Part shown: positions 331-40,155 of the stretch, in pieces
Numbering within the stretch: position 1 is the first letter of the stretch
How the letters are laid out: each line of letters opens with the position of its first letter
Assembly: GCF_008831285.2 (NCBI RefSeq)
Contig: NC_045146.1
Span: 11,857,289-11,921,288 of the forward strand
Direction: 5' to 3'
Source of the DNA: Nymphaea colorata
Taxonomy: Eukaryota > Streptophyta > Magnoliopsida > Nymphaeales > Nymphaeaceae
Length of the DNA: 64,000 nucleotides
Translations under genes and position numbers: made by a program
The notes under the pieces: model-generated
The model's input: only the letters and a program-made list of their open reading frames with translations
Database searches by the model: none
What the model was told of the DNA's origin: nothing

Positions 331-806
331 CAATGAACCGGTCTGGTAGTCACCGCTTTCTCTGTCTTCCAATGGCATAGAGACCGAAGGATCATTCACG
401 TGCCGAGTTTCTTTGCCAGGTGCCAAATGATTTTAACGAAATGAGAAAATGAACGATGTTGATGTCATTCAAGGGCACAGCTTATGGTGCTTCTTTCTTC
501 ACCTTGACAAGTCAGGAATTAAAGAGAAACAACTTACAAACGAACTAAACTCCAAGGAGAGTTTGATCGAACGAGCCAATTTCGCCAACTGTATCAAGTT
601 TATCGCCATCTCTTGTTTGATTCCCTGGCTTTATAAGTTATTTTTTGAAGTCGCATAGCTGGACATAAAACTAAATTTTATGCGTAGATTGTTTTTTAGT
701 TGTTCAAGCGGTCAACTTAATTATTAATATTTCACAACTTGCTACATATATATTTATCAGAAAGGCTAATCAATTATTTGACATAAACTTCATATTTACC
801 TAGTTT

Positions 807-852
<46 letters not shown>

Positions 853-886
853 ATAGGGGGAAAGAGAGAGAGAGAGAGAGAGAGAA
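807..886. repeat. Compound microsatellite (GT)n(TA)n(GA)n
   Basis: Consecutive GT, TA and GA dinucleotide runs. The same compound run is present at about 11018-11097 in copy 2. Confidence 0.9.
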
Positions 887-1900
887 TAATTAGTTGCCAA
901 ATTGAATGACCGAAGCGCCACTACAAGTTTGGCACATTTGACAATAAGGTTTTGCAAATTAAAACATGAAGCAAAATTATTTGACTATGAAAAATGTTGC
1001 CATCAAGATCTTTTCGAGAGGGATTGATGAGCGTGATCTTGAATTAACATCTAAAACTTCACTTTTGTCATCTCTTTCTGTTGTCACCCATTTTCTGCAC
1101 CCAAATACTGAGCATGAAAATACGAAAATATTAGGAATAATTTAGCATTTTGACATGATCTAGGCAAAGTTAGTCCGCAACAAGGTATTTGCGAATTGAT
1201 TTGATGAAAATAGGCCCTAAAAATGGATACCCGTTTGGGTTTTATGATTATAAGAGGGGCGAGTGCGATTGATCGTGTCAAACAGAGGCGGAGAGCTTTC
1301 ACATTCTCCTATGTTAAGATTAACATATTACCTTCTCTAACTAAAATGAGATTTTAGGTCATTCAGCTACGGAAAGAAGAAATTTGAGTGGCAAAACTTG
1401 ACGAACCATCTCAAGCCAAACCCAGTCACGCATCCTTTTAATCTAAATAATACACGGTAAATGTAAGCTCTTATCTGTCACACGATGAAAGCAATTTTCA
1501 TATCAAGGGACATTTGAGGCTGGTAAATATTGAGGTTGTCATATGGACGACGATCTCTCATCTCCCTTGTTGCTCTCTGCTTGTTTCTCGTGTATCTTCA
1601 TCGACAATTACAATGTAACGTATTAGTGCCCCTCAGCCAGAAAATTACTCGGGCCCCCTTGTCCCAATAATAAATGGTGCCTGCTGGACTGCTTGCAAGT
1701 TTCAACTATGTCTATGATCGTTTCTGGCTGGTTGGCTTCTTCTCTGTCTACGTAAAGAGATTGCTCGGAAATTTTAACAACTGTTGGAAAGTCCAATCCA
1801 CAGTCTATTTGGCCAGCAAGTCTTCTATTAATGGAGTTCTGTTCCATAGCCTTCACGTGATGTCGCCGGTTGCTCGTTTTGGACCAATAATTGGCTGAAG

Positions 1901-2014
1901 CTCCGTTTTTTCCTCAAAAGAATATTTTCATAGAAAAAATTGACTCCGTTTTTTCCTCAAAAGAATATCTTCACAGAAAAAATTGGCTCCTTTTTTTCGT
2001 CAAAAGAATATCAG
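1901..2014. repeat. 43-base tandem repeat, about 2.6 units
   Basis: Units start at 1901, 1944 and 1987, giving a period of 43. Each carries a T-rich stretch, 'cctcaaaagaatat' and 'gaaaaaattg', with a few substitutions; the third unit is partial. The equivalent in copy 2 starts at about 12112. Confidence 0.85.
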
Positions 2015-2393
2015 CTGTCAAGTTTTAAATTGCTAAAAGAATCGAACATTCTAAAAGCTTTTTGTTTTCTGCCCACCTCTCTGCCTTACCCACGTAGAAC
2101 GCTCAAGGAAAACATACCAGATTTGCTGATTAATCATTAAAACTAAGGCTCTTTTGCGAGAAAGGGGATGATACCTCCTTTGGTTTAAGAAGCAAAGAGA
2201 GATGACTCGATCGGTCCCTATTTTTAAAGGTCTTCCGATACTGATCATGCATGGCACTAACTTGGATTCACTATAGATTCTCAACCAAGTCATCGTAATT
2301 ATGAGTTCACTTCCGTTACCCTCATGAAAAATAAAAAAATTACTCATATGCATGATTTTCAAGAATTGTCATTTGGCCTGCGTACAGATTTTA

Positions 2394-2399
<6 letters not shown>

Positions 2400-2434
<35 letters not shown>
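2400..2434. repeat. (TA)n microsatellite
   Basis: A run of about 35 bases of TA. In copy 2 (about 12611-12647) it is two bases longer, one of the few length differences between the copies. Confidence 0.9.
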
Positions 2435-2435
<1 letters not shown>

Positions 2436-2688
2436 CGAACAGACCCTTATATGCCAGCCCTTATATATTCATATCAAGGCTAAAAAATTAATATTGACCA
2501 TAAAAAAACAATCACTATATGGGCATTAATTAATGATTGTTTATCAAAATTTGTTTCCTAGAAGTAAACAACATATAATATTTTTTCAGCAGAGAGAGAA
2601 TTAGTAGAACCACATATAGATGTTTCTAGGTAACATGTAAGCTCTTGCTGCTAAGTGCACATGTAAGTTCATTTTTCCTTTCTGCCAG

Positions 2689-3030
2689 GTCTATCGACCT
2701 TATAATAGTGGTGGTGGTACCGCATGCGCCTCGACTTCCTCATCCGATCGCTGGGTATGCATGCTTCAATGTTGCATTTCTTTTCTACTCTCTCGCTCTG
2801 TTATGGTCGAATTTAGATTACAACAAAGGGAATTACATGAACCTTTTAGCTTCTGAATTGCATCTATGTGTAATGCTGACCGATCGATTTAACGTGCCTT
2901 GCAGAAAAAGATCGGGAAGTGTATGTGGGCTGCCTTGCGTTTGTCTGATTTAGCCTTTGGTACTGGTGGTTTCATCGACCTTGGTTCCTCCCTCTTTGAT
3001 ACCCTCGATCTTCTGTTGGGAGACTCTTGA
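2689..3030 (+). other. Exon-like pair, unrecognised small gene or gene remnant
   Basis: Two segments behave like exons. Positions 2689-2754 follow a pyrimidine tract ending CCAG and end at GTATGC; they encode 22 residues starting VYRPYNSGGG. Positions 2905-3030 follow TTGCAG and encode 41 residues from KKIGKCMWAALR to a TGA, ending LDLLLGDS. The frame is phase 0 across the intron. A seven-codon exon-like start at about 184-204 is also phase 0, but its donor is non-consensus. I do not recognise the product. The same pair occurs at about 12902-13243. Low certainty. Confidence 0.3.
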
Positions 3031-3129
3031 ATTTCGGAACAGCACCACGTAGACTAAGTTCTACAGCTTCATTCGAGTCTCCAGGGAATTCTCTTTGTTG
3101 GAGTCTGTGTCTCGTCTTGTGTAAGGAAA

Positions 3130-3325
3130 TGTATATATTTTGTCATTTGGCTACGACATCGTCCTTCGTCTACGGTTAGGTGATTATGCCGCTCCGTCTT
3201 CCCATTCCCTTTCCACCCTTTTTATTTTGTTTTACAATACATTGTATTGTATATTTCGTCTTTATGGACTTTTTGTCCTCAAATTTTTGTATTGATTCCC
3301 ATTTTATCGGCTAAATCAACTATAA
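3130..3325. repeat. Diverged 3' flank module, four copies
   Basis: This AT-rich stretch, with landmarks 'ttcgtcta', 'gtatatttcgtctt' and 'ttttatcggct', is recognisably related to 8570-8770, 18778-19000 and the exact counterpart at about 13343-13538. Together with the A-type module it suggests one ancestral flank unit that was shortened in the copy near 8000-8800. Confidence 0.5.
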
Positions 3326-5563
3326 GAAGTTTTCTTGGTTTGGTTTACTTGGCTGTGTACGTGTTGAATTTTATTTGAACTTCAATGTTGGTTGGGATTC
3401 TTGCTTCTAAAAAAATCCTATTGAAATTCTCCCAATAAAACAACTCACTGGCCATTCAAATTTGGAATTTCTAAATTATAAATATCAAAATTGTTATGCA
3501 ATTAAGTGTACATATGTTTCAAGCACCATATGGTAACTGGTCAAGTTAGCGGCATGTAGGAACGCAGGTCTCTAGTTAAATTCTGATAGGTGCTATGCCA
3601 TTGATGCAACTTATGACCCTATGACCCTAAAGCCCTCAATTTCAACGAGGCCCTAACTCATTCTAAAACATGATCATCTCTTTCACATGGAGGGAGGATA
3701 ATGGAAGCAATTTTTACATCTCTCATGTCTATCTTATACTGATGCCTGCCATGCCAAGTATGTTTTCTAAGCAACTGCTACGCAAACCAGAACCGCCGTC
3801 TAGTGTTTGATTACATGTCTGGTTTGTCGACCAACTGTTCATAATTGATGCAATTAAGTTTGGCAATCTGGACGTAATGCGTTTTAGCTAATGCTGGAAT
3901 GTGAGAGTCGACCATATTCTTCTTATAGATAAAAGCTTGCGCCTCCCCTTTTGATGAGGTGATTAAGTGGTAGCAGACAAGCCTATGGGTCCTCATGCAC
4001 ACTGGATATGGCTCTCATCCTACATTTCTTTCCCCCTCTCATTGTCTCCATCTCTCTCTTACACTCAAATAATAGTGACAAATATATAAAAGTAATTGCC
4101 TACACGTTAATATATAGCTTCGAAAATTTTATCTACGATATCAAACTTCAGAAGTTCTTTTTTTTTTCACCTTCAATCTACATATGGCTGGACACCTGGC
4201 CGAAGTGGCCGTAAAATGTGGCATAGGTTTTTTCCAGCCACTAGGAACAAAGTCAAAGTATGGATGTCAAGTTAGCTCAGATATTTAATCCGACTCTTTT
4301 AGAAAAATATGATACGAAAAAAAATTAGTATCCAATTAAGAAATTAGAACGGATTCAGATTTCTTCAGATTAGGATTTAGATATGATTTTTTTTTCATTT
4401 ATATTCAAATCCAAGATTGGGATTTAGATATGATTTTTTTTTCATTTATATTCAAATCCAAGTTTGAATCTCTGAGTATATGGATATATGAAAACACAGA
4501 TATTTTTAAGAATATATTTAATTTGAATTCAATCCATTCACATATATAGGAGCCAGGGCCCTGCTTCATATTGGACTAGGAATAAAAAATTTTACTTGAA
4601 ATATTTTGGCAAAAAATAATAATAATAAGAACAATAAAAGAACAATGGGCGGGCCTTGTGGCATGTATAATTATAAACATGAGGTTTGAACTCATGTTGC
4701 GACCCCATAGATTTATAATTGATTTTGTAGGTTGGAAAAAAGGGGATAACGATCGATTGAAGAACTTGCATTGCAGAAAAATGTGAGGAGGTGTATATGG
4801 GAATTTCGCCAGTGCTGTTGATCCTGTAGTTGACATTGGTGTTGTTGATCATTTGAATTTGCAGCAATATGGACGTGACCTTTTTATATGAAATGTGCAT
4901 TGCATTTCTTGAAATCAATACCAACTTTTGGAAAGTCTGAATTCCTCATTGTGAAAAATCGTATTACATATCCAAATATACCAGCAGGTTACCAAGTTTT
5001 TTATCATGACAATCGCAACCGTAAAATTTTTAGATTAATTTCTAAATAAAGATCGAAAGCTGGCTTTTAAGCAATTACATTTTGGCCTGGTCGTCCAATT
5101 ACAGATCTCTATCTTGAATACCAAGGATGAATTTTCTGAAATAAATTCTTTGTTTCGTGATCTGTACAGTAGGACTCCATTCCCTGATTTAGGGTTGCTT
5201 GTTCCTGTCAATATTACTGGAAATTAACAGGCAATTTTGTTTTAATTGCCAACCGTAATGCCCTCATTTTATATATATATATATATACTCGGATTCTTTT
5301 ACCAGGTGGGTGCCACCCCTTTTAAAGTTAGATTGCAATGTCTCTAAAGGCTTCAATCAAAGCAGAGTGGCGGAGACTAATTAAAAATGCAATCTGTAAT
5401 TTAGTATCATAAATGACTAGAAAACAAGAACAATAACGAATGAAGCCTTCAATTGGCTTTCAGAGAAAGAAAGAAAGACAAGATAACAGCTAGGAAGAAA
5501 AGAAAGAAGGCGGAGGAAGCAGGAATGAGCTGAGCCTTCTAATTGATTTGTCACGCCTACTCA
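3326..5563. other. Amylase copy 1 3' flank, no gene seen
   Basis: AT-rich sequence without a supported gene. It contains two 47-base direct repeats (units at 4373 and 4420, each with a T8 tract), a TA run at 5269-5286, and short ORFs that do not look coding. Copy 2 carries the same sequence at about 13539-15778. Confidence 0.6.
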
Positions 5564-7279
5564 TTAAATCTTCTCCCAGACCGCGTAATCCTTCCCAGCA
5601 GCAACCATACGGAACCCTGGAGGAATGAGACCGCCGGCGTCATACCTGGACCCGATCTTCGTAATCACCTTTCCATCAATCTTAGCCACATACAGATCCT
5701 TCTCTGCACCCAATATTTCGACGGTGCTTCCCGCCTTGATCCCATTCTTTTCCCTTATCCCCGCAAGCAACTTAATCTCTTTCCCCAGTCCCCAATCAAA
5801 GTAGTGATCATAGAACTGCAAAAACCAAAAGAAAGAATACACAAATAGATGTAAGAATGCATAATTAAGACGATTCTTTACCTTTCCGGTGAACCGCTGC
5901 CCGGAAAAAGAGTTTCCAGCCTGAGCGGAGAAGTGCTAGACAGAGGAAGTAAGGCTACTTACGATTGAAGGTATGCCAGGATGCGTGAGGATGTACGCGT
6001 ATCCCTGCATGACTTTGTCCCCTGGGAACGGCCAGTAGTTCTGGGTCGACCCCGTGTCATGGTTGTCTATGAATGTCACCGCCTTCTCCGGCGAGATCCC
6101 AATCAGTCCCGACGGCCTCCCCTGTGAATCCTTCAACCGCCACAGCTCGTCTTTGACGGCAGATTGCAGCACTCCCTTGGTGGTGAAGTCGAACGCCGTT
6201 GCGACTCCACCCGCACCCCGCACCCAATTGTCCAGCTCCCTTCGGTGTGCTTCCGGGCCTTGAACTGGATCCGAGCCCAGGGAGCTCCAAACCTCGCCCA
6301 CCACGAACTCCGGACGGGCTCGCTGGATGTAGCCTCTCGTCACATCCGTGGAGTATCCCTTGGCGAAGTCGAGGCGCCACCCGTCAAAGCCGACGTCGGT
6401 CTTGAGCCAGGTGAGCCAGTCGGTCAGCTCCTTCTGCACCCTCTGGTTCAGGTGGTCGATGTCTGGGGCGGGGCCGTAGCTATCTCCGGTGTCGTAGTTG
6501 CCGGAACCGTCGGAGTACTGGGTGTCGTCCTTACAGATGGACCAGGCACCCCAGTCCAGGCTGCCGTCGCCCTTCCCTCCCTCGAACGCTGCCCAAATTC
6601 CTCGCCCGTCCTTCTTCGCTGCCGTCCGGTGGTTGATCACCACGTCCGCTAGGCACTTTATGTTTGATGCATGGAAAGCCTTTATCAGGTCCCTCAGGTC
6701 CGCCTCGCTCCCATACTTTGATGAATCGAGGTCGTAATATCTCCCCGGCAAGTAACCTGCTTGACCCCAAAGCGAAACAGAGACGAGTTTTCGTGTTAAA
6801 TGTCTTCATGATCTCAAACACAACGTTTGGTAAATGATATCCCGATGAAACTAATGAGGCCATGGAGGAATATATGTTTGGCTCACCTTCAGGAGAAGCC
6901 GACTGCGAAGGAGGAGGAAGCCAAACATGGGTGACGCGTGCTTCTGCTATCTGAGGCACCAAATTCTTGAGAACACGATACCATCCTTGGGTGTTCTTGG
7001 AAGATTGCCAATTGAAGCCCTATAGAGAGGTTAAAAAGAAGGCATCGTATCAGTGCCCAAGACAATGTAGCCTAATACAGCATTAAGAAAAACCAACTAT
7101 GAAGAAGATATATATATGTATGTATATATATAAGCTTTATTGCTTATTAAGCTCAACCTCTGGCATTGTTCCTACCTGAAAGAGAAGCTGGGCATGAGAA
7201 AGCTGGGAGAAGGAAGCAAGAAAAGAAAGAGAACGGGCAAGATGAAAGCGAGCAAGTGTGCCACGCTATGGGAAGCCAT
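5564..7279 (-). CDS. AMY: Alpha-amylase (GH13), copy 1, with exon-1 frameshift
   Basis: A secreted endo-acting starch hydrolase cutting alpha-1,4 glucan bonds. Exons: 7176-7279, 6887-7019, 5963-6756 and 5564-5815. Exons 2 to 4 encode the full barrel and C-terminal domain, with the GH13 acid residues in [15 protein letters not shown] and [10 protein letters not shown], ending VWEKI as in plant AMY1 proteins. Exon 1 has GG at 7212-7213 where copy 2 has GGG at 17427-17429. As written, the frame shifts inside the signal peptide and stops after about 58 codons, within exon 2. Either copy 1 is a very young null allele or one base was missed; two other G-run losses in this copy favour the second view. 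Exons 2 to 4 show no other damage. Confidence 0.9.
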
Positions 7280-7347
7280 TGAAGAGAAATAAGGGAGTAA
7301 GCTATTGAGCAGCTCTGATCTGCCCTTCCTGGCCTCCCTTCATGGGG

Positions 7348-7355
7348 TTTTTATA
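7348..7355 (-). promoter_or_regulatory. TATA box of amylase copy 1
   Basis: TATAAAAA on the minus strand, about 70 bases upstream of the amylase ATG at 7279 and followed by CCCC. The spacing fits a short 5' UTR. I could not confirm gibberellin-response or TATCCA boxes upstream. Confidence 0.65.
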
Positions 7356-7904
7356 GCAATGCAGCATTAAATGCTCTAACGATATAGAAAGCGCAGATAG
7401 AGATCATAGAGATAGGGAAAGCAGAAAAAGTAAAAATCAGAAAACAAAAAAGGCCCTTAACCAGACAAGGCAGCCCGTTACCTGCATTGAAGGTGTGGCG
7501 GGGAGAAGAACAGGGGCGAATAGGTTTGGCATGGTTTAGCTGCCATTATCGCACACAAAAAGTGGGACGTCATCCCGGGACCCAGAGGTGCTGGACTTAC
7601 GCTTAACTGCTTCGATCGAATACAACTGCGAATCGGCGTCGAAGGAAAACTGGATGAGAGAAAGTGAGATAGATGAGCCCAATCTTGCACTAAAGGCAAG
7701 AGATGAGAGAGCCTTCCTCCAAATTTACTACGCCAACGGATCTTTACGCCATCGCCGGAAACTTATCTGTGGATCATCTGATCACTGCTCTTGCTTTTAC
7801 ACGTACTTTTGGGAATCGACGCTTTTGAAGCTTATCTTGTTTGCCATTAATGCTAAGAGGGCATCGTTACTTGTATAAAGATAAGGTCGATATATAGGTA
7901 GATG
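7356..7904. other. Amylase copy 1 upstream region
   Basis: Promoter and distal 5' flank of the minus-strand amylase. No other gene is seen. The stretch 7670-7900 is homologous at lower identity to 9967-10200, where no amylase gene follows. Confidence 0.5.
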
Positions 7905-8830
7905 GTCAAGGCTCTTCCTGTTGTTCATCAACTTTAGTATGCGGCGGCGGCTATCTCGGTTGGCCTAATAGGCGATGTTTGTTGTGATATGTACGTCAGC
8001 CGGTCAGGATTCTGTTCTTTTGTCTTGTCGGTCACGTTCATGCCGTCAGCCCATTGGTCTGAATTTCCATGTTCATCTCATCCCCCTCGCAGATGCACCT
8101 GATCATGAGAAAGGTCGACAAAATTAGTTTATTATCCTTTTCTCTTTTCAAATGCAAACTCTACGTAGGACTTGAAGCCAAGATGTTGCAACTGAAACCG
8201 AAGATTACTGCACCAAAATTTAGTGACATGAAGTCAAGTTCTTGGATGAGATTATTAAACAAAACGGCTTCTTCATAGCAAATGAAATCAAAATATCACC
8301 AAGTCAAGTTAAACGGCTTTGTTGAAATTGTATTGCACCCAATATGCATCTGGTTCTGATGAACTCATACACAGAAGAACCTCCTATCCTTGATGTGGTC
8401 GAAAAAAGGGCCACCGAAACAAACCAAAAAAGGGCCACCGAAACAAACCAATAGACAAGGAAAACTTCGTGCAAAATTACATTTTATAGTCTCCCCTTCT
8501 TTAAGAGAAACCATGGAGCTTGTTCACGATCATTTATAAGTTTTTAACCATGACTAATTAAATGATGGGGATGTTCATTTTCCTATTCGGCTACGGTGTC
8601 TTCTTCCGTCCTGGGCAATTGTGTTGCTTCATCTATCTATTCTCTCCCCACCTATCTTATTTCATTTTACGTGCAATTGTCTTGTATATTTTGTCTTTTA
8701 TTTTTATTTTTGTGGTTTGATCTTGTATTTAGGGAACATCTAATTTTCATTTTATGGGCTTTTCTCTCTCTCTCTCTCGCTATATATATATATATATATA
8801 TATATATGCATCTATTGCCCCACTCATAAT
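7905..8830. repeat. Flank module B1 and diverged tail
   Basis: 7905-8130 is a diverged copy of the module at 1-204. 8402-8425 and 8426-8449 are a perfect 24-base tandem duplication, present once in copy 2. 8570-8770 is related to 3130-3325. The tail carries CT and TA microsatellites at about 8762-8807. Identity with copy 2 drops sharply after 8269. Confidence 0.6.
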
Positions 8831-10210: not shown

Positions 10211-10540
10211 CCTGAAGGCTCTTCCATCCATCTAAACAGAGTGTTAAGTATGTAGCTGCTATCTCGGTTGGCGTCACAGGCGATGTTTGTTGTACTGTAT
10301 GTAGTCGATATTATGTTCTTGTGTATCCTTGTTCACGTCCTTGGCGTTATCCCATTGGACTGAATTTCCGCGCTCATCTCGTCTCCCTTGCAGATGCACC
10401 TGATCATAAGAAAGGTCACAAACACATCAACTCTAAACCCTTTCCTTTCTATGTATGTCCATCTGCTCTTCCTCCACCCTCCTCTCTATCTGTCTCCCCT
10501 CTTCTCCTTTTTCTCCCCATCTTTTCCTCAACATGGTCCG

Positions 10541-11017
10541 GCAATGAACCGGTCTGGTAGTCACCGCTTTCTCTGTCTTCCAATGGCATAGAGACCGAAG
10601 GATCATTCACGTGCCGAGTTTCTTTGCCAGGTGCCAAATGATTTTAACGAAATGAGAAAATGAACGATGTTGATGTCATTCAAGGGCACAGCTTATGGTG
10701 CTTCTTTCTTCACCTTGACAAGTCAGGAATTAAAGAGAAACAACTTACAAACGAACTAAACTCCAAGGAGAGTTTGATCGAACGAGCCAATTTCGCCAAC
10801 TGTATCAAGTTTATCGCCATCTCTTGTTTGATTCCCTGGCTTTATAAGTTATTTTTTGAAGTCGCATAGCTGGACATAAAACTAAATTTTATGCGTAGAT
10901 TGTTTTTTAGTTGTTCAAGCGGTCAACTTAATTATTAATATTTCACAACTTGCTACATATATATTTATCAGAAAGGCTAATCAATTATTTGACATAAACT
11001 TCATATTTACCTAGTTT

Positions 11018-11063
<46 letters not shown>

Positions 11064-12604
11064 ATAGGGGGAAAGAGAGAGAGAGAGAGAGAGAGAATAA
11101 TTAGTTGCCAAATTGAATGACCGAAGCGCCACTACAAGTTTGGCACATTTGACAATAAGGTTTTGCAAATTAAAACATGAAGCAAAATTATTTGACTATG
11201 AAAAATGTTGCCATCAAGATCTTTTCGAGAGGGATTGATGAGCGTGATCTTGAATTAACATCTAAAACTTCACTTTTGTCATCTCTTTCTGTTGTCACCC
11301 ATTTTCTGCACCCAAATACTGAGCATGAAAATACGAAAATATTAGGAATAATTTAGCATTTTGACATGATCTAGGCAAAGTTAGTCCGCAACAAGGTATT
11401 TGCGAATTGATTTGATGAAAATAGGCCCTAAAAATGGATACCCGTTTGGGTTTTATGATTATAAGAGGGGCGAGTGCGATTGATCGTGTCAAACAGAGGC
11501 GGAGAGCTTTCACATTCTCCTATGTTAAGATTAACATATTACCTTCTCTAACTAAAATGAGATTTTAGGTCATTCAGCTACGGAAAGAAGAAATTTGAGT
11601 GGCAAAACTTGACGAACCATCTCAAGCCAAACCCAGTCACGCATCCTTTTAATCTAAATAATACACGGTAAATGTAAGCTCTTATCTGTCACACGATGAA
11701 AGCAATTTTCATATCAAGGGACATTTGAGGCTGGTAAATATTGAGGTTGTCATATGGACGACGATCTCTCATCTCCCTTGTTGCTCTCTGCTTGTTTCTC
11801 GTGTATCTTCATCGACAATTACAATGTAACGTATTAGTGCCCCTCAGCCAGAAAATTACTCGGGCCCCCTTGTCCCAATAATAAATGGTGCCTGCTGGAC
11901 TGCTTGCAAGTTTCAACTATGTCTATGATCGTTTCTGGCTGGTTGGCTTCTTCTCTGTCTACGTAAAGAGATTGCTCGGAAATTTTAACAACTGTTGGAA
12001 AGTCCAATCCACAGTCTATTTGGCCAGCAAGTCTTCTATTAATGGAGTTCTGTTCCATAGCCTTCACGTGATGTCGCCGGTTGCTCGTTTTGGACCAATA
12101 ATTGGCTGAAGCTCCGTTTTTTCCTCAAAAGAATATTTTCATAGAAAAAATTGACTCCGTTTTTTCCTCAAAAGAATATCTTCACAGAAAAAATTGGCTC
12201 CTTTTTTTCGTCAAAAGAATATCAGCTGTCAAGTTTTAAATTGCTAAAAGAATCGAACATTCTAAAAGCTTTTTGTTTTCTGCCCACCTCTCTGCCTTAC
12301 CCACGTAGAACGCTCAAGGAAAACATACCAGATTTGCTGATTAATCATTAAAACTAAGGCTCTTTTGCGAGAAAGGGGATGATACCTCCTTTGGTTTAAG
12401 AAGCAAAGAGAGATGACTCGATCGGTCCCTATTTTTAAAGGTCTTCCGATACTGATCATGCATGGCACTAACTTGGATTCACTATAGATTCTCAACCAAG
12501 TCATCGTAATTATGAGTTCACTTCCGTTACCCTCATGAAAAATAAAAAAATTACTCATATGCATGATTTTCAAGAATTGTCATTTGGCCTGCGTACAGAT
12601 TTTA

Positions 12605-12648
<44 letters not shown>

Positions 12649-15600
12649 CGAACAGACCCTTATATGCCAGCCCTTATATATTCATATCAAGGCTAAAAAA
12701 TTAATATTGACCATAAAAAAACAATCACTATATGGGCATTAATTAATGATTGTTTATCAAAATTTGTTTCCTAGAAGTAAACAACATATAATATTTTTTC
12801 AGCAGAGAGAGAATTAGTAGAACCACATATAGATGTTTCTAGGTAACATGTAAGCTCTTGCTGCTAAGTGCACATGTAAGTTCATTTTTCCTTTCTGCCA
12901 GGTCTATCGACCTTATAATAGTGGTGGTGGTACCGCATGCGCCTCGACTTCCTCATCCGATCGCTGGGTATGCATGCTTCAATGTTGCATTTCTTTTCTA
13001 CTCTCTCGCTCTGTTATGGTCGAATTTAGATTACAACAAAGGGAATTACATGAACCTTTTAGCTTCTGAATTGCATCTATGTGTAATGCTGACCGATCGA
13101 TTTAACGTGCCTTGCAGAAAAAGATCGGGAAGTGTATGTGGGCTGCCTTGCGTTTGTCTGATTTAGCCTTTGGTACTGGTGGTTTCATCGACCTTGGTTC
13201 CTCCCTCTTTGATACCCTCGATCTTCTGTTGGGAGACTCTTGAATTTCGGAACAGCACCACGTAGACTAAGTTCTACAGCTTCATTCGAGTCTCCAGGGA
13301 ATTCTCTTTGTTGGAGTCTGTGTCTCGTCTTGTGTAAGGAAATGTATATATTTTGTCATTTGGCTACGACATCGTCCTTCGTCTACGGTTAGGTGATTAT
13401 GCCGCTCCGTCTTCCCATTCCCTTTCCACCCTTTTTATTTTGTTTTACAATACATTGTATTGTATATTTCGTCTTTATGGACTTTTTGTCCTCAAATTTT
13501 TGTATTGATTCCCATTTTATCGGCTAAATCAACTATAAGAAGTTTTCTTGGTTTGGTTTACTTGGCTGTGTACGTGTTGAATTTTATTTGAACTTCAATG
13601 TTGGTTGGGATTCTTGCTTCTAAAAAAATCCTATTGAAATTCTCCCAATAAAACAACTCACTGGCCATTCAAATTTGGAATTTCTAAATTATAAATATCA
13701 AAATTGTTATGCAATTAAGTGTACATATGTTTCAAGCACCATATGGTAACTGGTCAAGTTAGCGGCATGTAGGAACGCAGGTCTCTAGTTAAATTCTGAT
13801 AGGTGCTATGCCATTGATGCAACTTATGACCCTATGACCCTAAAGCCCTCAATTTCAACGAGGCCCTAACTCATTCTAAAACATGATCATCTCTTTCACA
13901 TGGAGGGAGGATAATGGAAGCAATTTTTACATCTCTCATGTCTATCTTATACTGATGCCTGCCATGCCAAGTATGTTTTCTAAGCAACTGCTACGCAAAC
14001 CAGAACCGCCGTCTAGTGTTTGATTACATGTCTGGTTTGTCGACCAACTGTTCATAATTGATGCAATTAAGTTTGGCAATCTGGACGTAATGCGTTTTAG
14101 CTAATGCTGGAATGTGAGAGTCGACCATATTCTTCTTATAGATAAAAGCTTGCGCCTCCCCTTTTGATGAGGTGATTAAGTGGTAGCAGACAAGCCTATG
14201 GGTCCTCATGCACACTGGATATGGCTCTCATCCTACATTTCTTTCCCCCTCTCATTGTCTCCATCTCTCTCTTACACTCAAATAATAGTGACAAATATAT
14301 AAAAGTAATTGCCTACACGTTAATATATAGCTTCGAAAATTTTATCTACGATATCAAACTTCAGAAGTTCTTTTTTTTTTCACCTTCAATCTACATATGG
14401 CTGGACACCTGGCCGAAGTGGCCGTAAAATGTGGCATAGGTTTTTTCCAGCCACTAGGAACAAAGTCAAAGTATGGATGTCAAGTTAGCTCAGATATTTA
14501 ATCCGACTCTTTTAGAAAAATATGATACGAAAAAAAATTAGTATCCAATTAAGAAATTAGAACGGATTCAGATTTCTTCAGATTAGGATTTAGATATGAT
14601 TTTTTTTTCATTTATATTCAAATCCAAGATTGGGATTTAGATATGATTTTTTTTTCATTTATATTCAAATCCAAGTTTGAATCTCTGAGTATATGGATAT
14701 ATGAAAACACAGATATTTTTAAGAATATATTTAATTTGAATTCAATCCATTCACATATATAGGAGCCAGGGCCCTGCTTCATATTGGACTAGGAATAAAA
14801 AATTTTACTTGAAATATTTTGGCAAAAAATAATAATAATAAGAACAATAAAAGAACAATGGGCGGGCCTTGTGGCATGTATAATTATAAACATGAGGTTT
14901 GAACTCATGTTGCGACCCCATAGATTTATAATTGATTTTGTAGGTTGGAAAAAAGGGGATAACGATCGATTGAAGAACTTGCATTGCAGAAAAATGTGAG
15001 GAGGTGTATATGGGAATTTCGCCAGTGCTGTTGATCCTGTAGTTGACATTGGTGTTGTTGATCATTTGAATTTGCAGCAATATGGACGTGACCTTTTTAT
15101 ATGAAATGTGCATTGCATTTCTTGAAATCAATACCAACTTTTGGAAAGTCTGAATTCCTCATTGTGAAAAATCGTATTACATATCCAAATATACCAGCAG
15201 GTTACCAAGTTTTTTATCATGACAATCGCAACCGTAAAATTTTTAGATTAATTTCTAAATAAAGATCGAAAGCTGGCTTTTAAGCAATTACATTTTGGCC
15301 TGGTCGTCCAATTACAGATCTCTATCTTGAATACCAAGGATGAATTTTCTGAAATAAATTCTTTGTTTCGTGATCTGTACAGTAGGACTCCATTCCCTGA
15401 TTTAGGGTTGCTTGTTCCTGTCAATATTACTGGAAATTAACAGGCAATTTTGTTTTAATTGCCAACCGTAATGCCCTCATTTTATATATATATATATATA
15501 TACTCGGATTCTTTTACCAGGTGGGTGCCACCCCTTTTAAAGTTAGATTGCAATGTCTCTAAAGGCTTCAATCAAAGCAGAGTGGCGGAGACTAATTAAA

Positions 15601-15778
15601 AATGCAATCTGTAATTTAGTATCATAAATGACTAGAAAACAAGAACAATAACGAATGAAGCCTTCAATTGGCTTTCAGAGAAAGAAAGAAAGACAAGATA
15701 ACAGCTAGGAAGAAAAGAAAGAAGGCGGAGGAAGCAGGAATGAGCTGAGCCTTCTAATTGATTTGTCACGCCTACTCA
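10541..15778. other. Copy 2 of the amylase 3' flank, no gene seen
   Basis: Near-exact copy of about 330-5563, including the compound microsatellite (about 11018-11097), the 43-base repeats (from about 12112), a longer TA run (12611-12647), the exon-like pair (12902-12967 and 13118-13243), the paired 47-base repeats (from about 14586) and a TA run at 15484-15503. Confidence 0.7.
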
Positions 15779-17495
15779 TTAAATCTTCTCCCAGACCGCG
15801 TAATCCTTCCCAGCAGCAACCATACGGAACCCTGGAGGAATGAGACCGCCGGCGTCATACCTGGACCCGATCTTCGTAATCACCTTTCCATCAATCTTAG
15901 CCACATACAGATCCTTCTCTGCACCCAATATTTCGACGGTGCTTCCCGCCTTGATCCCATTCTTTTCCCTTATCCCCGCAAGCAACTTAATCTCTTTCCC
16001 CAGTCCCCAATCAAAGTAGTGATCATAGAACTGCAAAAACCAAAAGAAAGAATACACAAATAGATGTAAGAATGCATAATTAAGACGATTCTTTACCTTT
16101 CCGGTGAACCGCTGCCCGGAAAAAGAGTTTCCAGCCTGAGCGGAGAAGTGCTAGACAGAGGAAGTAAGGCTACTTACGATTGAAGGTATGCCAGGATGCG
16201 TGAGGATGTACGCGTATCCCTGCATGACTTTGTCCCCTGGGAACGGCCAGTAGTTCTGGGTCGACCCCGTGTCATGGTTGTCTATGAATGTCACCGCCTT
16301 CTCCGGCGAGATCCCAATCAGTCCCGACGGCCTCCCCTGTGAATCCTTCAACCGCCACAGCTCGTCTTTGACGGCAGATTGCAGCACTCCCTTGGTGGTG
16401 AAGTCGAACGCCGTTGCGACTCCACCCGCACCCCGCACCCAATTGTCCAGCTCCCTTCGGTGTGCTTCCGGGCCTTGAACTGGATCCGAGCCCAGGGAGC
16501 TCCAAACCTCGCCCACCACGAACTCCGGACGGGCTCGCTGGATGTAGCCTCTCGTCACATCCGTGGAGTATCCCTTGGCGAAGTCGAGGCGCCACCCGTC
16601 AAAGCCGACGTCGGTCTTGAGCCAGGTGAGCCAGTCGGTCAGCTCCTTCTGCACCCTCTGGTTCAGGTGGTCGATGTCTGGGGCGGGGCCGTAGCTATCT
16701 CCGGTGTCGTAGTTGCCGGAACCGTCGGAGTACTGGGTGTCGTCCTTACAGATGGACCAGGCACCCCAGTCCAGGCTGCCGTCGCCCTTCCCTCCCTCGA
16801 ACGCTGCCCAAATTCCTCGCCCGTCCTTCTTCGCTGCCGTCCGGTGGTTGATCACCACGTCCGCTAGGCACTTTATGTTTGATGCATGGAAAGCCTTTAT
16901 CAGGTCCCTCAGGTCCGCCTCGCTCCCATACTTTGATGAATCGAGGTCGTAATATCTCCCCGGCAAGTAACCTGCTTGACCCCAAAGCGAAACAGAGACG
17001 AGTTTTCGTGTTAAATGTCTTCATGATCTCAAACACAACGTTTGGTAAATGATATCCCGATGAAACTAATGAGGCCATGGAGGAATATATGTTTGGCTCA
17101 CCTTCAGGAGAAGCCGACTGCGAAGGAGGAGGAAGCCAAACATGGGTGACGCGTGCTTCTGCTATCTGAGGCACCAAATTCTTGAGAACACGATACCATC
17201 CTTGGGTGTTCTTGGAAGATTGCCAATTGAAGCCCTATAGAGAGGTTAAAAAGAAGGCATCGTATCAGTGCCCAAGACAATGTAGCCTAATACAGCATTA
17301 AGAAAAACCAACTATGAAGAAGATATATATATGTATGTATATATATAAGCTTTATTGCTTATTAAGCTCAACCTCTGGCATTGTTCCTACCTGAAAGAGA
17401 AGCTGGGCATGAGAAAGCTGGGAGAAGGGAAGCAAGAAAAGAAAGAGAACGGGCAAGATGAAAGCGAGCAAGTGTGCCACGCTATGGGAAGCCAT
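15779..17495 (-). CDS. AMY: Alpha-amylase (GH13), copy 2, intact
   Basis: Four exons: 17391-17495, 17102-17234, 16178-16971 and 15779-16030, joining to 428 codons (427 residues plus stop), the usual length for plant AMY1. Residues 1 to about 30 form a signal peptide with a Leu/Phe-rich core ending near SHAQ, so the enzyme should enter the secretory pathway. The mature protein starts near QLLFQGFNW. The GH13 catalytic residues are Asp209 (GWRLDF), Glu234 (VGEVW) and Asp313 (FIDNHD). The C-terminal beta domain ends VWEKI. All junctions are GT-AG and in phase. It acts in starch breakdown in the apoplast or germinating tissue, by family knowledge. Only the G count in exon 1 separates its coding sequence from copy 1, as far as I could see. 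Confidence 0.95.
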
Positions 17496-17563
17496 TGAAG
17501 AGAAATAAGGGAGTAAGCTATTGAGCAGCTCTGATCTGCCCTTCCTGGCCTCCCTTCATGGGG

Positions 17564-17571
17564 TTTTTATA
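17564..17571 (-). promoter_or_regulatory. TATA box of amylase copy 2
   Basis: TATAAAAA on the minus strand about 70 bases upstream of the ATG at 17495, identical in context to copy 1. Confidence 0.65.
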
Positions 17572-18121
17572 GCAATGCAGCATTAAATGCTCTAACGATA
17601 TAGAAAGCGCAGATAGAGATCATAGAGATAGGGAAAGCAGAAAAAGTAAAAATCAGAAAACAAAAAAGGCCCTTAACCAGACAAGGCAGCCCGTTACCTG
17701 CATTGAAGGTGTGGCGGGGAGAAGAACAGGGGCGAATAGGTTTGGCATGGTTTAGCTGCCATTATCGCACACAAAAAGTGGGACGTCATCCCGGGACCCA
17801 GAGGTGCTGGACTTACGCTTAACTGCTTCGATCGAATACAACTGCGAATCGGCGTCGAAGGAAAACTGGATGAGAGAAAGTGAGATAGATGAGCCCAATC
17901 TTGCACTAAAGGCAAGAGATGAGAGAGCCTTCCTCCAAATTTACTACGCCAACGGATCTTTACGCCATCGCCGGAAACTTATCTGTGGATCATCTGATCA
18001 CTGCTCTTGCTTTTACACGTACTTTTGGGAATCGACGCTTTTGAAGCTTATCTTGTTTGCCATTAATGCTAAGAGGGCATCGGTTACTTGTATAAAGATA
18101 AGGTCGATATATAGGTAGATG

Positions 18122-19003
18122 GTCAAGGCTCTTCCTGTTGTTCATCAACTTTAGTATGCGGCGGCGGCTATCTCGGTTGGCCTAATAGGCGATGTTTGTT
18201 GTGATATGTACGTCAGCCGGTCAGGATTCTGTTCTTTTGTCTTGTCGGTCACGTTCATGCCGTCAGCCCATTGGTCTGAATTTCCATGGTCATCTCATCC
18301 CCCTCGCAGATGCACCTGATCATGAGAAAGGTCGACAAAATTAGTTTATTATCCTTTTCTCTTTTCAAATGCAAACTCTACGTAGGACTTGAAGCCAAGA
18401 TGTTGCAACTGAAACCGAAGATTACTGCACCAAAATTTAGTGACATGAAGTCAAGTTCTTGGATGAGATTATTAAACAAAACGGCGTCTTCATAGCAACT
18501 GAAATCAAAATATCACCAAGTCAAGTTAAACGGCTTTGTTGAAATTGTATTGCACTGAATATGCATCTGGTTCTAATGAACTTATATATATATATATATA
18601 TCTTATCGAAGCTATAGACAAAAATCGAAGCTATCGATGTGGTCGAAAAAAGGGCCACCGAAACAAAGAAAACTACGTCCAAAATTACATTTTATAGTCT
18701 CCCCTTCTTTGAGAGAAACCATGGAGCTTGTTCACGATCATTTATAAGTTTCTAACAACCATGACTAATTAAATGATGGGGATGTTCATTTTCCTATTTC
18801 GCTACGATGCCGTCTTTCGTCTGCGATTGGGCAACTGTGTTGCTCCATTTATCTACTCTCTCCCCACCTCTTTTATTTCATTTTACGTGCAATTGTCTTG
18901 TATATTTTGTCTTTTTTTTCTCTTTTTGCGGTTTGTTCTTGTACTTAGGAAACATCTTGTCCTCGAATTTTACTATGAATTTTTATTTTATCGGCTTTCT
19001 CTC

Positions 19004-20146: not shown

Positions 20147-21092
20147 TCACATGTTATCCAAGATTTCCTCTATGACCTCGGACACCGCTTCCTTAACAAA
20201 CTTCTCTGCTTCCTTCTCTGCTCGTGAATCCTTGCTTCCTTTCTTCTTTTTCTACAACACCAGTTGAGCAGCCATTGTGATCTCATGCAATTAGAAAAGC
20301 GTACTCGTAAGACGGCAAACAGGTGCTTATGAAGAAAATAAACTTACCGAACTTTTCCCTGAAGACTTTGAGCTTTCCTTGATCGCGCATTCTGCAACAT
20401 AAGAACAAGCTCAACGAAATTTTCTAAGAAGCCAATTTTCAATCACTTTCAACATTTTGTTCCCTCGATTTATTCAACGTTTAAATTCGATATGTGACGA
20501 TCTGAAAGAAAATATGAATTTACGAATGGATCAAAGCACATACGTCAGTCTCTTTGTCACTCTCACCTGTGTGCAGCTCGAACCCGCAAGGCTTACACCT
20601 GTAGTACCATTGCTTGCGGCCGTGCCTGATGCAGAGGTCGCAGATGAAGCCCAGCCCTCCGTAGGCCGTCTTGGTGGCAAGCACCAGCGCGTGCTTGTGG
20701 GACGGGTGTTGGACGCAGGCCGGCAGCCTGGCGCAGCGTGGGTGGACGTCTAGGCGGCAGGCGGCGCACCGGTAGAGGAAGCCGCGGCCTATTTGACGGC
20801 AGGCGCTGCAGCTGAAGACTTCCCCTGGGTAAGGCGGGACGTCCAGGAAGGCGAGGGGATGCAGCTCGTCGGCCGGGTGGCGGATCTCGCGCGGCGGGTC
20901 GGCGCACTCGCAGTGCAGGAAGTACGTGCAGGAGCGGCAGGCGTAGACGCCATCCTTGGAGGAGCACTCTTCGTGGCAGCCGCCGCAACGGGGGTTTTCT
21001 TTCTGGCCGTTGTCGTCTATCTGGGAGAGATGCAGCGGGTGGGCATGGCTGAAGTGGGTCAGGGTAAGGGCTTCTAGGGAGCTGATCTCCAT
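20147..21092 (-). CDS. DC1-domain (C1-like zinc finger) protein with lysine-rich tail
   Basis: Three exons, 20567-21092, 20348-20391 and 20147-20251, give 224 residues. The first exon carries three Cys/His-rich DC1 modules, roughly residues 13-67, 78-123 and 130-178, with CxxC pairs and HC/HPRC signatures; the last module is completed across the first intron as FELHTEC. The tail is a Ser/Lys stretch with a KKKK run, then an acidic helix-like end (EAVSEVIEEILDNM). DC1 proteins bind zinc and are implicated in signalling and stress responses; the ligand of this one is unknown. A GT donor inside exon 1's ORF extension and in-frame exons downstream support the spliced end over the longer unspliced reading. 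Confidence 0.88.
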
Positions 21093-23072
21093 CTTCTTTA
21101 ATCACTTGTGTTGATCGAGATGTTCAGCGGATTTAATATGGTGAATATTGCTGTTTGAGAGGAAATACAGAACAAAGGCCGCGTTTATCTCACGCACGCG
21201 GAATAAGAAGAGAAGACGCAGCCTAATCTCCAAGCCAAGTTGAAGGAAGGTTACCATGACCAGCAAGCAAAGAAAAAAGGGGGTGGCCTCCCACCCCAAC
21301 TCAAAATTGCCGCAAAATTAGACATTTTTTTGGAAGAGACAGGATGAGCTCCAGTCATCGTCAATAACCATGAGCGGAATTCACAGTAGAACAAGTGAAA
21401 CGACCCAACTGGAACATGATTCGGTGCCATGTATTTGTACATTTTTTTGCAATTGCATCTCGAAAGTAATCTCCACAGTCGATATGCATTTGCATTTGCG
21501 ATTAGAGTTTCATTCAAGTCTATGGATCTAAGTATACATACATTTCTAGGTTTGTTTTCCATACAGTTCATGCCCATGCTGCTGAAACTTTCTACGACAA
21601 CTAAACGATTGGTTTATGAAATGTGACTACATAACATCGTAATTGTGTGTTCCCTATCTGATCTGACAAGAGGAACGGTTGAGACATAAAAAGGGGCCGG
21701 GCTGGCCTCTTTGATTTCAAGGCACAAGAAACTGGTCTTGCCCCTAAGGAGTGATAGTGCAAAGCTGGAAAGCTTCCAAGAAACATGACAACTCCTTCGT
21801 GGATAAGAGATGAGCAATTACCATGAGCAGAATGTAACAAGTCAAGCTAGTCGTAGTTTGGCTCCCGTCTGCTTGTGCAGCGCTCGCCTAAAGTCGTTAA
21901 ATGAGCTCTGCAGGTCAAAATATGAAGAGTGCGCATGCTCAGTCGGCTCAGTTCATGTAAGATTGATAATGCAAAACAAGTTGTTTGGCAACAGTTGTTT
22001 TAAAGTACCGAGTTTGATGTCTTGCAGAGTAAGCTTGTTGAGCCAATCAGCTGACATTAGTAACTTTAACCATGAATTTCACAATGAAGTAAAACATAGC
22101 GGCCTGTGACACGTAATGTGGAAGTGAGGAAGCGAACTATCGAAAAATATTATGCTATTAGCATATCTGATGCGGATTCAGAGAAGGATGTGAAGCTATA
22201 ACTAAAATGTTTGCCAGAAAGAAAACTTCACAAAGCGAAGCGAGCAACCATAAGCTAAATAGCGAGATGCTTTCTTCATTTACGGGAGAGAGAGAGAGAG
22301 AACACAATAATCATGTAGGTAAGCTTGGTATAAGACTATAAGCTCAATCCTTAGCATTTGCACTTTAAGAGATTTGTTACTTTAACCATAATTAGAAGCT
22401 TATCAAAGTCAGGTACTTAGGAAAATGAGTTTATGCCATTTGAACGAAAGCGGCTTTTCTATAAGCTCGTCCGTTTAGTTTTTGACTTCCTGGGAAAATA
22501 TGGCATTCTCAGAAAACAGCTCGTTTATAAAATTAAATTCAATGAGTACTTTAAAGCTGAAACCAGTTTCATTGAAAAGCAAGGATGGATTTCTCAGTAG
22601 CAATGGAACGCTAATGGATTTACAGTCGCCTTAGTCGGGAATGAATTTGGAAAAAGTACAAAACGAAGAACAACGTGGAGAAGATTAAGGTCCAATTCAA
22701 CGCAATAGATGAAAGCAAGTGGATTTACCGATCCCTTTCATAATACTGTTTCTCCGAGCCCCATATCGTCTTTGTCGAACAGTCAAACCACATTACCCTG
22801 TCTCCAGGACAAGATATCCGCACATGCCTCAGAAATGAAACGGGTTCGCTCCTAAGAAAAGTTTCTCCAAGACGGTTCAATATACATAACTTCATAGCTG
22901 CACAAGGAGACTAGAAGTACCTAATACAAAACAACATTTGAACAATTTTATTGGATGAGAAAAATGCATTGCTAAACTTCGACCGCGAAGCATATCCAGC
23001 CCCCTTGACTGGCAAGAATATAGCCTCTATATTAGTGATTTATACACTATATCCCATAAGAATAAATAGCGT
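21093..23072. other. Intergenic: DC1 promoter and QPT 3' flank
   Basis: No coding region recognised. It holds the upstream region of the minus-strand DC1 gene and the 3' flank of QPT. Short ORFs on both strands lack recognisable protein character. A short GA run lies at about 22287-22303. Confidence 0.5.
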
Positions 23073-36080: not shown

Positions 36081-36230
36081 TAAGGCCACGTTTGATGGCC
36101 AGGAAAAATACTGTTCATCGAGGGTTTTTTTTCTTTTTTGTACGGTTTCAACCGATTTCAACGAGCGCCATCAAACGGTGCTAAAATCCCCCCGCTCAAA
36201 ACTCGTTTCCAGGGTAAATTTACCCTGGAA

Positions 36231-36260
36231 AAAAGTCGGACCCTCACGGGTCCGACTTTT
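36231..36260. repeat. Perfect hairpin inside the Harbinger-type element
   Basis: A 13-base stem (AAAAGTCGGACCC) and its complement are separated by a four-base TCAC loop; flanking A/T bases extend the pairing by about two. A separate perfect 20-base palindrome lies at 36209-36228. Subterminal hairpins are common in non-autonomous DNA elements. Confidence 0.85.
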
Positions 36261-36547
36261 TTTTGGGGATAATTTTTTTGCCCGTTAGGGCTTCTTCCAG
36301 CGCTCCTCTCCCTCGCGACCGCTTCCACACAGGCAAATGTCGCCGTTCGCTGCTGCCGAAGCTCTCGCCTCTTGCCTGCCGACCCATCACTGTCGTCGCC
36401 ACTAGTCGGTGCTGCCTCTGCCCTCCCCTGAAATTTCCCTCCCCTGATTCAATGGTTCCTTGACTGCTTGCGGTTGCTGCTGCCATCGCCACTCGCTGGT
36501 GTTATCGCCACCACCGTCGCCCTTCACTGCGAAAATTCGGGGCTGTT

Positions 36548-37090
36548 CATTTTCTTCTCTTGCCTGCAATATGTGTCCAGAAGCCCCTCCTTGAATTTCA
36601 AAGAGCGAAGCTGAAGTTTGAGGCAGAATTGCAGCAGGAAGCAGAAAATGGGGATTTCACCTACAGCATTGTGAGGCCGACGGCTTTCTTCATGAGTTTA
36701 GGTGGGCAGGTTGAGTTGGTAAAGGATGGGAAGCCATATGTAATGTTCGGAGATGGCAAACTATGCACCTGTAAACCCATCAGCGAAGAGGATTTGGCCT
36801 CTTTCATTGCTGACTGCATCTCTTGTGAAGATAAAATTAACAAGATTCTCCCAATTGGTGGACCAGGAAAGGCATTAACACCACTTGAGCAGGGAGAATT
36901 GTTGTTCAAACTTTTGGGCAAGGAACCCAAGTTTCTGAAAGTTCCAATAGGAATGATGGACTTTGTAATCGGCATTCTTGATTTTTTGGTTAAATTCTTC
37001 TTTTCTCTGGGAGATGCTGCAGAATTTAGAAAAATTGGAAGGTATTATGCTGCAGAAAGTATGTTGGTGCTTAACCCAGAAGATGAATGA
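36548..37090 (+). pseudogene. DVR: Captured fragment of divinyl chlorophyllide a 8-vinyl reductase
   Basis: An open frame of about 180 codons matching the middle and C-terminal half of plant DVR (PCB2), the NADPH-dependent enzyme reducing the 8-vinyl group in chlorophyll synthesis. Signatures: [58 protein letters not shown]. The N-terminal transit peptide and NAD(P)-binding part are absent. Homology starts in frame near 36548 (HFLLLPA) and the frame stops after LNPEDE, where the full enzyme continues for roughly 40 more residues. It lies wholly inside the TIR-bounded element, so it is best read as transduplicated sequence, not a working reductase. The frame is otherwise uninterrupted, suggesting a recent capture. 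Confidence 0.88.
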
Positions 37091-37303
37091 ATAAGCAGGA
37101 TGTTTGGGTTTCAAATTTTTTCATAAAAAATTTTTCTTGTCTATCAAACTATGCATTTTTTACCCATCAAAAAAATTCCAGGCTATCAAACATGACCCTG
37201 AAACAAGAAAAAGGAAAATTTACCCCCTTTTCAATTTACCGTGGAGATTTTTTCTTGAAAAAATTCTCCTTCAAAAAAATCCAGGCCATCAAACGTGGCC
37301 TAA

Positions 37304-39057: not shown

Positions 39058-39132
39058 TACTGCTCAAACCATATAACTTCAGTACGTTAGAACGAGGGAG
39101 AGAGACACATAGAGAGGGAGAGAGAGAGAGAG

Positions 39133-40155
39133 ATGGGCAGGCTCCAAAAAGAAGAAGCAATGGTCCACCATTTCAGCCATGACCACCTTCTGCAACTCAT
39201 GCCCTTCACCCAATCCAGCCACGCCAACCTCCACACCCGCTGTTGCGGACCCCCTCCATCTTCTATCTGTGCCACCATGAACGACCCCATCTACGCATGC
39301 ACCCACTGCAACTTCTCAATCCACAAGTCATGCTCGAAGCTCCCTCGGCTCATCAAGCATCGCTTCCACCCTTCCCACGACCTCACCCTCCTCCCTCTCC
39401 CAGTATATCTCAACGGCTCCTTCTCCTGCGACGCCTGCTCCAACGACTCATCTTCCGCATTCTCCTACCACTGCTCCCACTGCGACTACGATCTCCACAC
39501 CCACTGCGCCTCCTTGCCGCTCACCGCCACCCATCCCTCCCACCCCCACACTCTCTCCCTCTCCTTCCTCTTCCCTCCCCCGGAGAAGGCCTTCACCTGT
39601 GGCGTCTGCCTTGCCAAGGGAGGCAGCGCCTGGCACTACGGCTGCTCGCCCTGCGGGTTCGCCGCCCATCTCCACTGCGCCCGAGCCGCACACCCCACCC
39701 CCACTGCCGTGAGTCCGTGCCCATCAACCGGCATACCGGTTCGTCCGCCACCTGCACCGGTCAGACCACCGAGCCAAGTTTCCAGGGGAACCGGACTCAC
39801 CGTGCATGGCCGGCCCATGGGCCAGCTCTCGAATCTGCCGATCGTGGGTTCGCTTGTGTCCAACCCGGCGGCATTGGCTTCGGTCGCTTCGATCGCGTGC
39901 TCGCTGGTGGGCATACCCCCCGTGTTCACTGGGCTCGCTGCCGCTGGTCTGGGTCGGATCGGGCGACCGAACAGGGGGCGACCGAACAGCCTTGCTTCTT
40001 CCGCTCAGGCCCTTGGTCTGGGAGGAGGTTCAGGCGGAGATGGTGGTTCCAGTGTGGGAGATGGTGGAGCAGGGTATGATTGTAATTTGAATAGTCAGAG
40101 TGACATTGCTTCTAGTGGCTTTGACTTTGGAGCCTTTGGTTTTGGTGGGTGTTAA
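39133..40155 (+). CDS. DC1-domain protein with Pro-rich linker and Gly-rich tail, intronless
   Basis: 340 residues in one exon. Three Cys/His-rich DC1 modules occupy about residues 13-68, 79-127 and 134-183, with patterns such as CTHCNFSIHKSC, CSHCDYDLHTHC and CSPCGFAAHLHC that bind zinc. A Pro-rich linker (about 195-215) follows, then a hydrophobic, Ala/Leu-rich stretch (about 237-272) that might associate with membranes, and a Gly/Ser-rich tail ending GAFGFGGC. The start is preceded by a GA-rich leader (about 39093-39132). It shares only the DC1 fold with the gene at 20147. Ligand and role unknown; the family is linked to stress and defence signalling. Confidence 0.88.
   Translation: MGRLQKEEAMVHHFSHDHLLQLMPFTQSSHANLHTRCCGPPPSSICATMNDPIYACTHCNFSIHKSCSKLPRLIKHRFHPSHDLTLLPLPVYLNGSFSCDACSNDSSSAFSYHCSHCDYDLHTHCASLPLTATHPSHPHTLSLSFLFPPPEKAFTCGVCLAKGGSAWHYGCSPCGFAAHLHCARAAHPTPTAVSPCPSTGIPVRPPPAPVRPPSQVSRGTGLTVHGRPMGQLSNLPIVGSLVSNPAALASVASIACSLVGIPPVFTGLAAAGLGRIGRPNRGRPNSLASSAQALGLGGGSGGDGGSSVGDGGAGYDCNLNSQSDIASSGFDFGAFGFGGC

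Follow-up and report, generated by a model that had tools for sequence, protein, structure and literature searches.

The window, a stretch of 64,000 nucleotides from Nymphaea colorata (C9:11857289-11921288), contains an element of 1,217 bp at positions 36084-37300. The perfect 17-base inverted ends and TAA repeats that an earlier note had read at 36081-37303 were borne out. Between them lie two regions shared with other members of a transposon family, a GC-rich piece, a fragment of a gene that we take to encode divinyl reductase (DVR), and a short intron remnant of a second gene, presumably a formin gene judging from a neighboring exon (Table 1).

Outside the element, an alpha-amylase gene (minus strand) lies in a tandem duplication of about 10.2 kb at window positions 1-8741 and 10211-18957. 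Identity was 100% in five blocks of 300 bp and 90% in one of 130 bp, and we read this as a recent duplication or an assembly effect. Open frames with C1_2 (DC1-type) domains were found at 20520-21101 (minus strand) and 39091-40155 (plus strand); from the right end of the insertion to the start of the latter is about 1.8 kb.

Table 1. Features of the element and its target site (window positions; L and C numbers denote loci and contigs of the same genome)
Feature	Position	Strand	Evidence
TAA target-site duplication, left	36081-36083		same as 37301-37303
Left 17-bp terminal inverted repeat	36084-36100	+	GGCCACGTTTGATGGCC; 49 exact genome matches, control 0
Left PIF-family region including hairpins	36084-36322	+	79-82% over ~200-240 bp to L030-L037 and L040 (interiors differ)
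Two adjoining hairpins	36208-36261	+	fold z = -6.6, 0/200 shuffles as good (36190-36285)
GC-rich piece of older capture	36321-36525	+	76% to L056 (C7:5332759-5332986); 75% in part to L057 (C3)
Deletion scar (~186 bp lost, including original DVR 5' junction)	36526-36531		sequence retained in long copies L023-L026
Captured DVR fragment, sense	36532-37080	+	donor residues 294-479; 97.3% over 549 bp to L027
Formin-like gene intron remnant, antisense	37077-37128	-	87% over 52 bp, pairwise E 5e-15, to L067 (C4:880000-880600)
Right PIF-family region	37111-37300	+	86% over 190 bp to C14 transposase-domain element
Subterminal end-repeat copy, 3 mismatches	37181-37197	-	L022 homology ends here
Right 17-bp terminal inverted repeat	37284-37300	-	exact complement of 36084-36100 repeat
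TAA target-site duplication, right	37301-37303		same as left TAA

Similarity of the left family region fell to 73% in L038 and to short pieces only in L039. The hairpins it contains gave eight Rfam matches at E <= 1, none of them at the gathering score. The loop of the second hairpin (36244-36247) reads TCAC, and some close copies carry the reverse complement GTGA, a 4-nt inversion between close copies. Across the copies, the loop of this hairpin (36235-36256) is TCAC in the window, L021 and L023, GTGA in L022, L026 and L028, and ATGA in L024.

The GC-rich sequence, whose source the earlier note had asked for (36280-36545), was traced as far as the diverged relatives L056 and L057, which are 70% identical to each other over 353 bp and neither of which holds PIF ends in the stretch fetched. 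A hAT-like repeat was considered as its source and rejected, there being no long inverted ends to back it. The DVR fragment had been described as fused to this GC-rich stretch. Both are present, but as separate captures, and the remnant at 37077-37128 adds a third; the last few residues of the DVR match fall within that formin-derived remnant.

Class and family of the element

The genome searched comprises 407.8 Mb in 783 contigs. The 17-mer end was found at four sites in the window at <=3 mismatches (0.16 expected) and, as an exact match, 49 times genome-wide against none for a reversed-pattern control; these 49 are single end matches, mostly unpaired into elements. Further copies of the ends, which the earlier note had made a test of its reading, are thus present. 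The family search returned 73 matches from 40 of 235 candidates scored, so that copy counts are lower bounds. Twenty longer stretches were read, one of them the DVR donor, along with several shorter ones. Target repeats of TTA or TAA matched in 16 of the 20 two-ended copies, a set that includes the C14 element described below and L018-L020; the copies without matching repeats were L018, L035, L036 and, unless its last base was lost, L040. L021, L022, L025, L026, L028, L061, L062 and L065 were left out of this count on the grounds of an end that was missing, in N, eroded, beyond the stretch or displaced.

One family member, at C14:6241462-6247465, is 6,004 bp long, has a matching TAA repeat and related ends, and encodes Myb_DNA-bind_3 (E 5.9e-16) and DDE_Tnp_4 (E 7.1e-11) domains by Pfam. 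Its right end is 86% identical to that of the window element over 190 bp and its left end 91% over 33 bp. The transposase reading is split across several frames and contains a repeated stretch. We consider this element the likely autonomous relative, or parent transposon, of the window element, judged on domains and ends.

We conclude that positions 36084-37300 are a non-autonomous Pack-type PIF/Harbinger DNA transposon. The 3-bp target-site duplication (TAA/TAA) is of the TTA/TAA kind that defines PIF/Harbinger elements, the short ends are held in common with the DDE_Tnp_4-encoding element on C14, and the second, Myb/SANT-like protein of the superfamily is found in that same 6.0-kb element. 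As for the Pack type, a host gene fragment (DVR, 549 bp, 97.3%) lies between the ends of an element that is itself non-autonomous, the donor gene stands elsewhere (C5:18102017-18103567), with no end-like sequence in the 6 kb read there, and seven DVR copies with dissimilar flanks indicate movement after capture. The earlier assignment to a Harbinger-type element with a captured DVR fragment is therefore upheld by shared-end copies, TTA/TAA repeats, an intact donor and a Myb + DDE relative.

Two other classes were considered and rejected. Pack-MULEs of rice likewise hold gene pieces between inverted ends, but these are Mutator ends with target repeats of about 9 bp, whereas the ends here are 17 bp and the target repeat is TAA, of the 3-bp TTA/TAA kind. 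Tourist-type MITEs have PIF ends, no captured coding sequence and usually less than about 500 bp, whereas the present element has 1,217 bp and DVR coding sequence.

Several other family members showed features of their own. L040 (C11:23423252-23425469), of 2.2 kb, has kept 262 bp of interior sequence of the C14 element (92%) and may therefore stand midway between the autonomous and the Pack form. L030 is 99% identical to L031 over 1,102 bp; its right end repeat (C6:11771894-11771910) is in the wrong orientation yet has TAA on both sides, and we read it as an end rearrangement or an assembly error. Candidate donor sequence for two further sister groups was matched at C7:4.65 Mb (79% and 82%) for L030-L032/L036 and at C6:5418508 (97% over 189 bp) for L037/L038/L040. 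On contig C279, weak matches to a family piece (75%, ~105 bp) recur at 12549, 22044, 32264 and 42337, and this spacing of ~10 kb suggests a tandem array.

The donor gene and the order of events

The parental DVR gene was found on C5 (L027), at 97.3% identity to the window over the 549 bp, as an uninterrupted frame of 517 codons at C5:18102017-18103567. A scan in which 22 of 22 candidates were scored yielded this one full gene and seven element copies with its middle part, and two other searches agreed with it. The protein has an NAD-binding domain whose match begins near residue 187-191. A pattern-seeded, non-exhaustive scan of bacterial and archaeal genomes gave 30 pattern-matching stretches, of which eight were confirmed as relatives (60-64% identical), all eight in Chlorobiaceae. 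Chlorobiaceae use the homologous reductase BciA, of the 8-vinyl reductase family, and the name DVR is supported since this is the group expected for that family. The 208-residue frame of the window gave NmrA and NAD_binding_10 below the Pfam cut-off and no transposase domain; the DVR fragment gave no NCBIfam match and seven weak PDB matches (best, pinoresinol reductase, E 1.4e-4).

Homology to DVR stays within the element, short of both inverted ends; its extension beyond them had been named as what would refute the capture. No end-like sequence (<=4 mismatches) was found in the 6 kb read around the C5 gene, and at seven donor or source loci the stretches fetched held neither end-like sequence at that threshold nor any match to the two end regions of the window element. 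When 1.2-kb flanks were compared among the seven DVR copies, no similarity was seen at E <= 1e-5. At their present positions, the copies (C1, C2 and C9) and the gene (C5) are unlinked.

Three longer copies match donor residues 232-479, and a fourth long copy, L023, has a broken frame and matches residues 232-445 plus a second stretch. The longer form carries 733 bp of DVR. Ends are eroded in L025 and L026, and the left end of L021 contains a run of N. The window copy differs from L021 at 2 of 1,169 aligned bases plus a 1-base gap, and from L022, within the element and up to the point where L022 stops, by three substitutions and the 4-base loop flip. Homology of L022 (C1:13527421-13528535) stops at the subterminal repeat and is followed by TTA, while the left flank is TCA; use of an alternative end is possible.

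The state before capture is represented by L028 and L029, which have the left and right parts of the window element around a different middle. L065 has the same middle at 82%, a left part at ~70% and window-element positions 994-1095 at 90%, with no clear pair of ends found. The DVR-less middle is itself a mosaic, with an L056-like piece (C7) at L029 element positions 231-543, an L066-like piece (C5; 104 bp, 92%) and an antisense piece of the formin-like intron (C4; 131 bp of element, 88%). The similarity to L056 passes through the point at which DVR starts in the DVR copies, and the DVR-less state is therefore taken to be ancestral. When DVR took the place of this interior, the element was thus a mosaic already, made of three or more pieces that have relatives at other sites in the genome. 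A loss of ~186 bp came next, in the common ancestor of three near-identical copies: the window copy, L021 and L022.

Mode of capture and status of the open frame

Two sister captures were found in the same family. In L039, two pieces of a C12 mTERF gene (376 and 126 bp) stand collinear and in sense; 567 bp of the gene are skipped, and 8 nt serve as filler. The donor is taken to be the uninterrupted 533-codon frame at C12:14995633-14996666 because both pieces match there (95%, 99%); a second place on C12 (15729331-15729536) matches over 206 bp at 94%. Relatives of L039 lie at C2:1850257 and C8:2969839 (both read) and C1:18539374 (match only), and its sister L061 has similar left and right parts with the mTERF piece absent. 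L033-L035, and C9:2278319 as a match only, carry two collinear pieces of a C13 gene with 155 bp skipped. A downstream exon of that gene encodes a CBS-like domain, which scores 22.8 bits (cut-off 24; E 1.2e-4). The second piece spans a putative intron, read from splice-like boundaries, which points to DNA, not RNA, as the copied template. In all three gene captures with a clear donor the piece is in sense.

The sequences show that the middle of an older mosaic element was replaced by ~733 bp of DVR in sense orientation. The DVR-carrying element then multiplied, one lineage losing the ~186 bp and giving the three near-identical copies, among them the window insertion. We propose that DVR entered by template switching, as a break within the element was repaired or replicated. 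Transposase from relatives such as the Myb + DDE element on C14 may move the family via the shared ends. Template switching is inferred because the donors as read today lack such ends, the pieces in both sister captures are collinear though discontinuous, and 4 nt are shared at a DVR junction: the 3' junction has CAGA in common between sister, donor and product, and the 5' junction is blunt. An overlap of 4 nt has a chance of ~1.6% per random junction and ~3% for two (hand-worked formula). Only these two DVR junctions were scored, the outer junctions of the mTERF and CBS captures being too diverged. A Pack-type PIF/Harbinger element into which DVR was copied by template switching, its frame a neutral passenger, is the best explanation overall, with a probability of about 0.78.

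Alternatively, two copies may have landed on either side of DVR sequence, lost their inner ends and moved together by their outer ends, the fusion model proposed for Pack-CACTA and Pack-PIF (PMC8903248). Family ends are abundant (49 exact), and maize Pack-PIF cluster 18 is compatible with fusion according to its authors (PMC8903248). However, both DVR breakpoints lie within coding sequence of a C5 gene that is fully open and has no end-like sequence in the 6 kb read around it, the DVR element aligns collinearly with one sister element on its left and right, no part being duplicated, and the mTERF and CBS pieces skip sequence within their donors. Fusion would need two same-orientation insertions in or beside DVR coding sequence and a complementary loss leaving no duplication. 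The capture history thus fits template switching better than fusion of neighboring insertions, and we regard fusion as unlikely. A further proposal is of serial, replacement-type capture, in which breaks in elements of this family would be patched time and again by template switching onto intact genes elsewhere, setting these downstream of a conserved leader that holds a strong hairpin, and in which the three near-identical DVR copies would act on the DVR gene via chimeric or small RNA. While its copying part is fairly likely, the proposal as a whole is more doubtful than fusion.

In the frame that remains open in the window (36464-37087, 208 codons), no in-frame ATG is reached until codon 77, about 53 codons into the DVR part, and the stop codon comes from the formin-derived remnant. 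Changes from donor to window number 12 nonsynonymous to 3 synonymous, against an opportunity ratio of 3.49, and look about neutral. After 15 random substitutions, the probability of an open frame was 0.50 (4,000 simulated copies). The matched DVR frame is stop-free in six of the seven copies and broken in L023. A protein function is unlikely given the near-neutral changes, the outcome of the simulations, the broken L023, the late first ATG and the borrowed stop; the captured frame is most likely, on these sequence measures, a neutral passenger. From the open frame, a chimeric transcript or regulatory RNA against DVR had been thought conceivable. The near-neutral changes, and a frame that half of the simulated copies keep, lend this suggestion no support.

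That the frame is a new gene, or a source of regulatory RNA acting on the DVR gene, would agree with the stop-free matched frames in sense to the element, the single full-length DVR gene found and the strong hairpins near the left end. Against it stand neutral-looking substitutions, an open frame that at this age is a coin toss, a fragment that begins at donor residue 294, beyond the start of the NAD-binding match, and no ATG ahead of codon 77; we consider it very improbable. Finally, although the DVR gene is one uninterrupted frame, so that a processed copy would look alike, a processed pseudogene or segmental duplication of DVR whose inverted ends arose by chance is refuted, to near certainty, by the recurrent ends, the matching target repeats, the unrelated flanks, the DVR-less relatives, the putative intron retained in a sister capture, and formin-derived sequence rather than poly-A directly after the DVR piece.

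Relation to published Pack-type elements

The earlier note had held that PIF/Harbinger captures are fewer than those of Mutator. This is a fair statement, yet PIF elements with captured host sequence have already been published from grapevine (PMC2528002) and from maize and rice (PMC8903248). The Pack-PIF elements of maize and rice (Gisby and Catoni 2022, PMC8903248) resemble the present element in being non-autonomous, in their mostly TTA/TAA repeats, in their host gene pieces and in clusters with and without a captured piece. In the worked maize example the pieces are 163 and 58 bp, and the authors favor fusion of neighbors (PMC8903248). Here ~733 bp replaced an existing interior, the donor is without such ends and the sister captures are discontinuous. 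Pifvine-3 of grapevine (2008, PMC2528002) is likewise a PIF element with host exons and introns, some common to several copies, but holds its extra sequence as a 5' region, up to 3.5 kb long, next to coding regions of its own, whereas here ~1-kb copies lack transposase.

The course proposed here, template switching and then transposition, corresponds to the gap-filling/FoSTeST scheme described for the Pack-TIRs of animals (PMC8277862). As here, these show short breakpoint overlaps (median 2 bp), present at one breakpoint or more in 67.6% of cases and in some accompanied by an insertion at the second breakpoint, and transposition after capture in multicopy families (PMC8277862). They are animal elements, and the term Harbinger is absent from the main text of that paper. 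Within the literature searched, the term Pack-PIF appeared in one paper, and no paper combined "divinyl reductase" with Harbinger or Harbinger with captured, microhomology and gap repair.

The Pack-PIF kind itself is therefore already published; new here is a base-resolved capture history that is unusually complete. A single genome holds the donor, the gene-less relatives, the product, a trimmed descendant, the likely parent transposon and two further captures. With this record of donor, relatives and product, a junction-by-junction test of copying versus fusion is possible in a single species.
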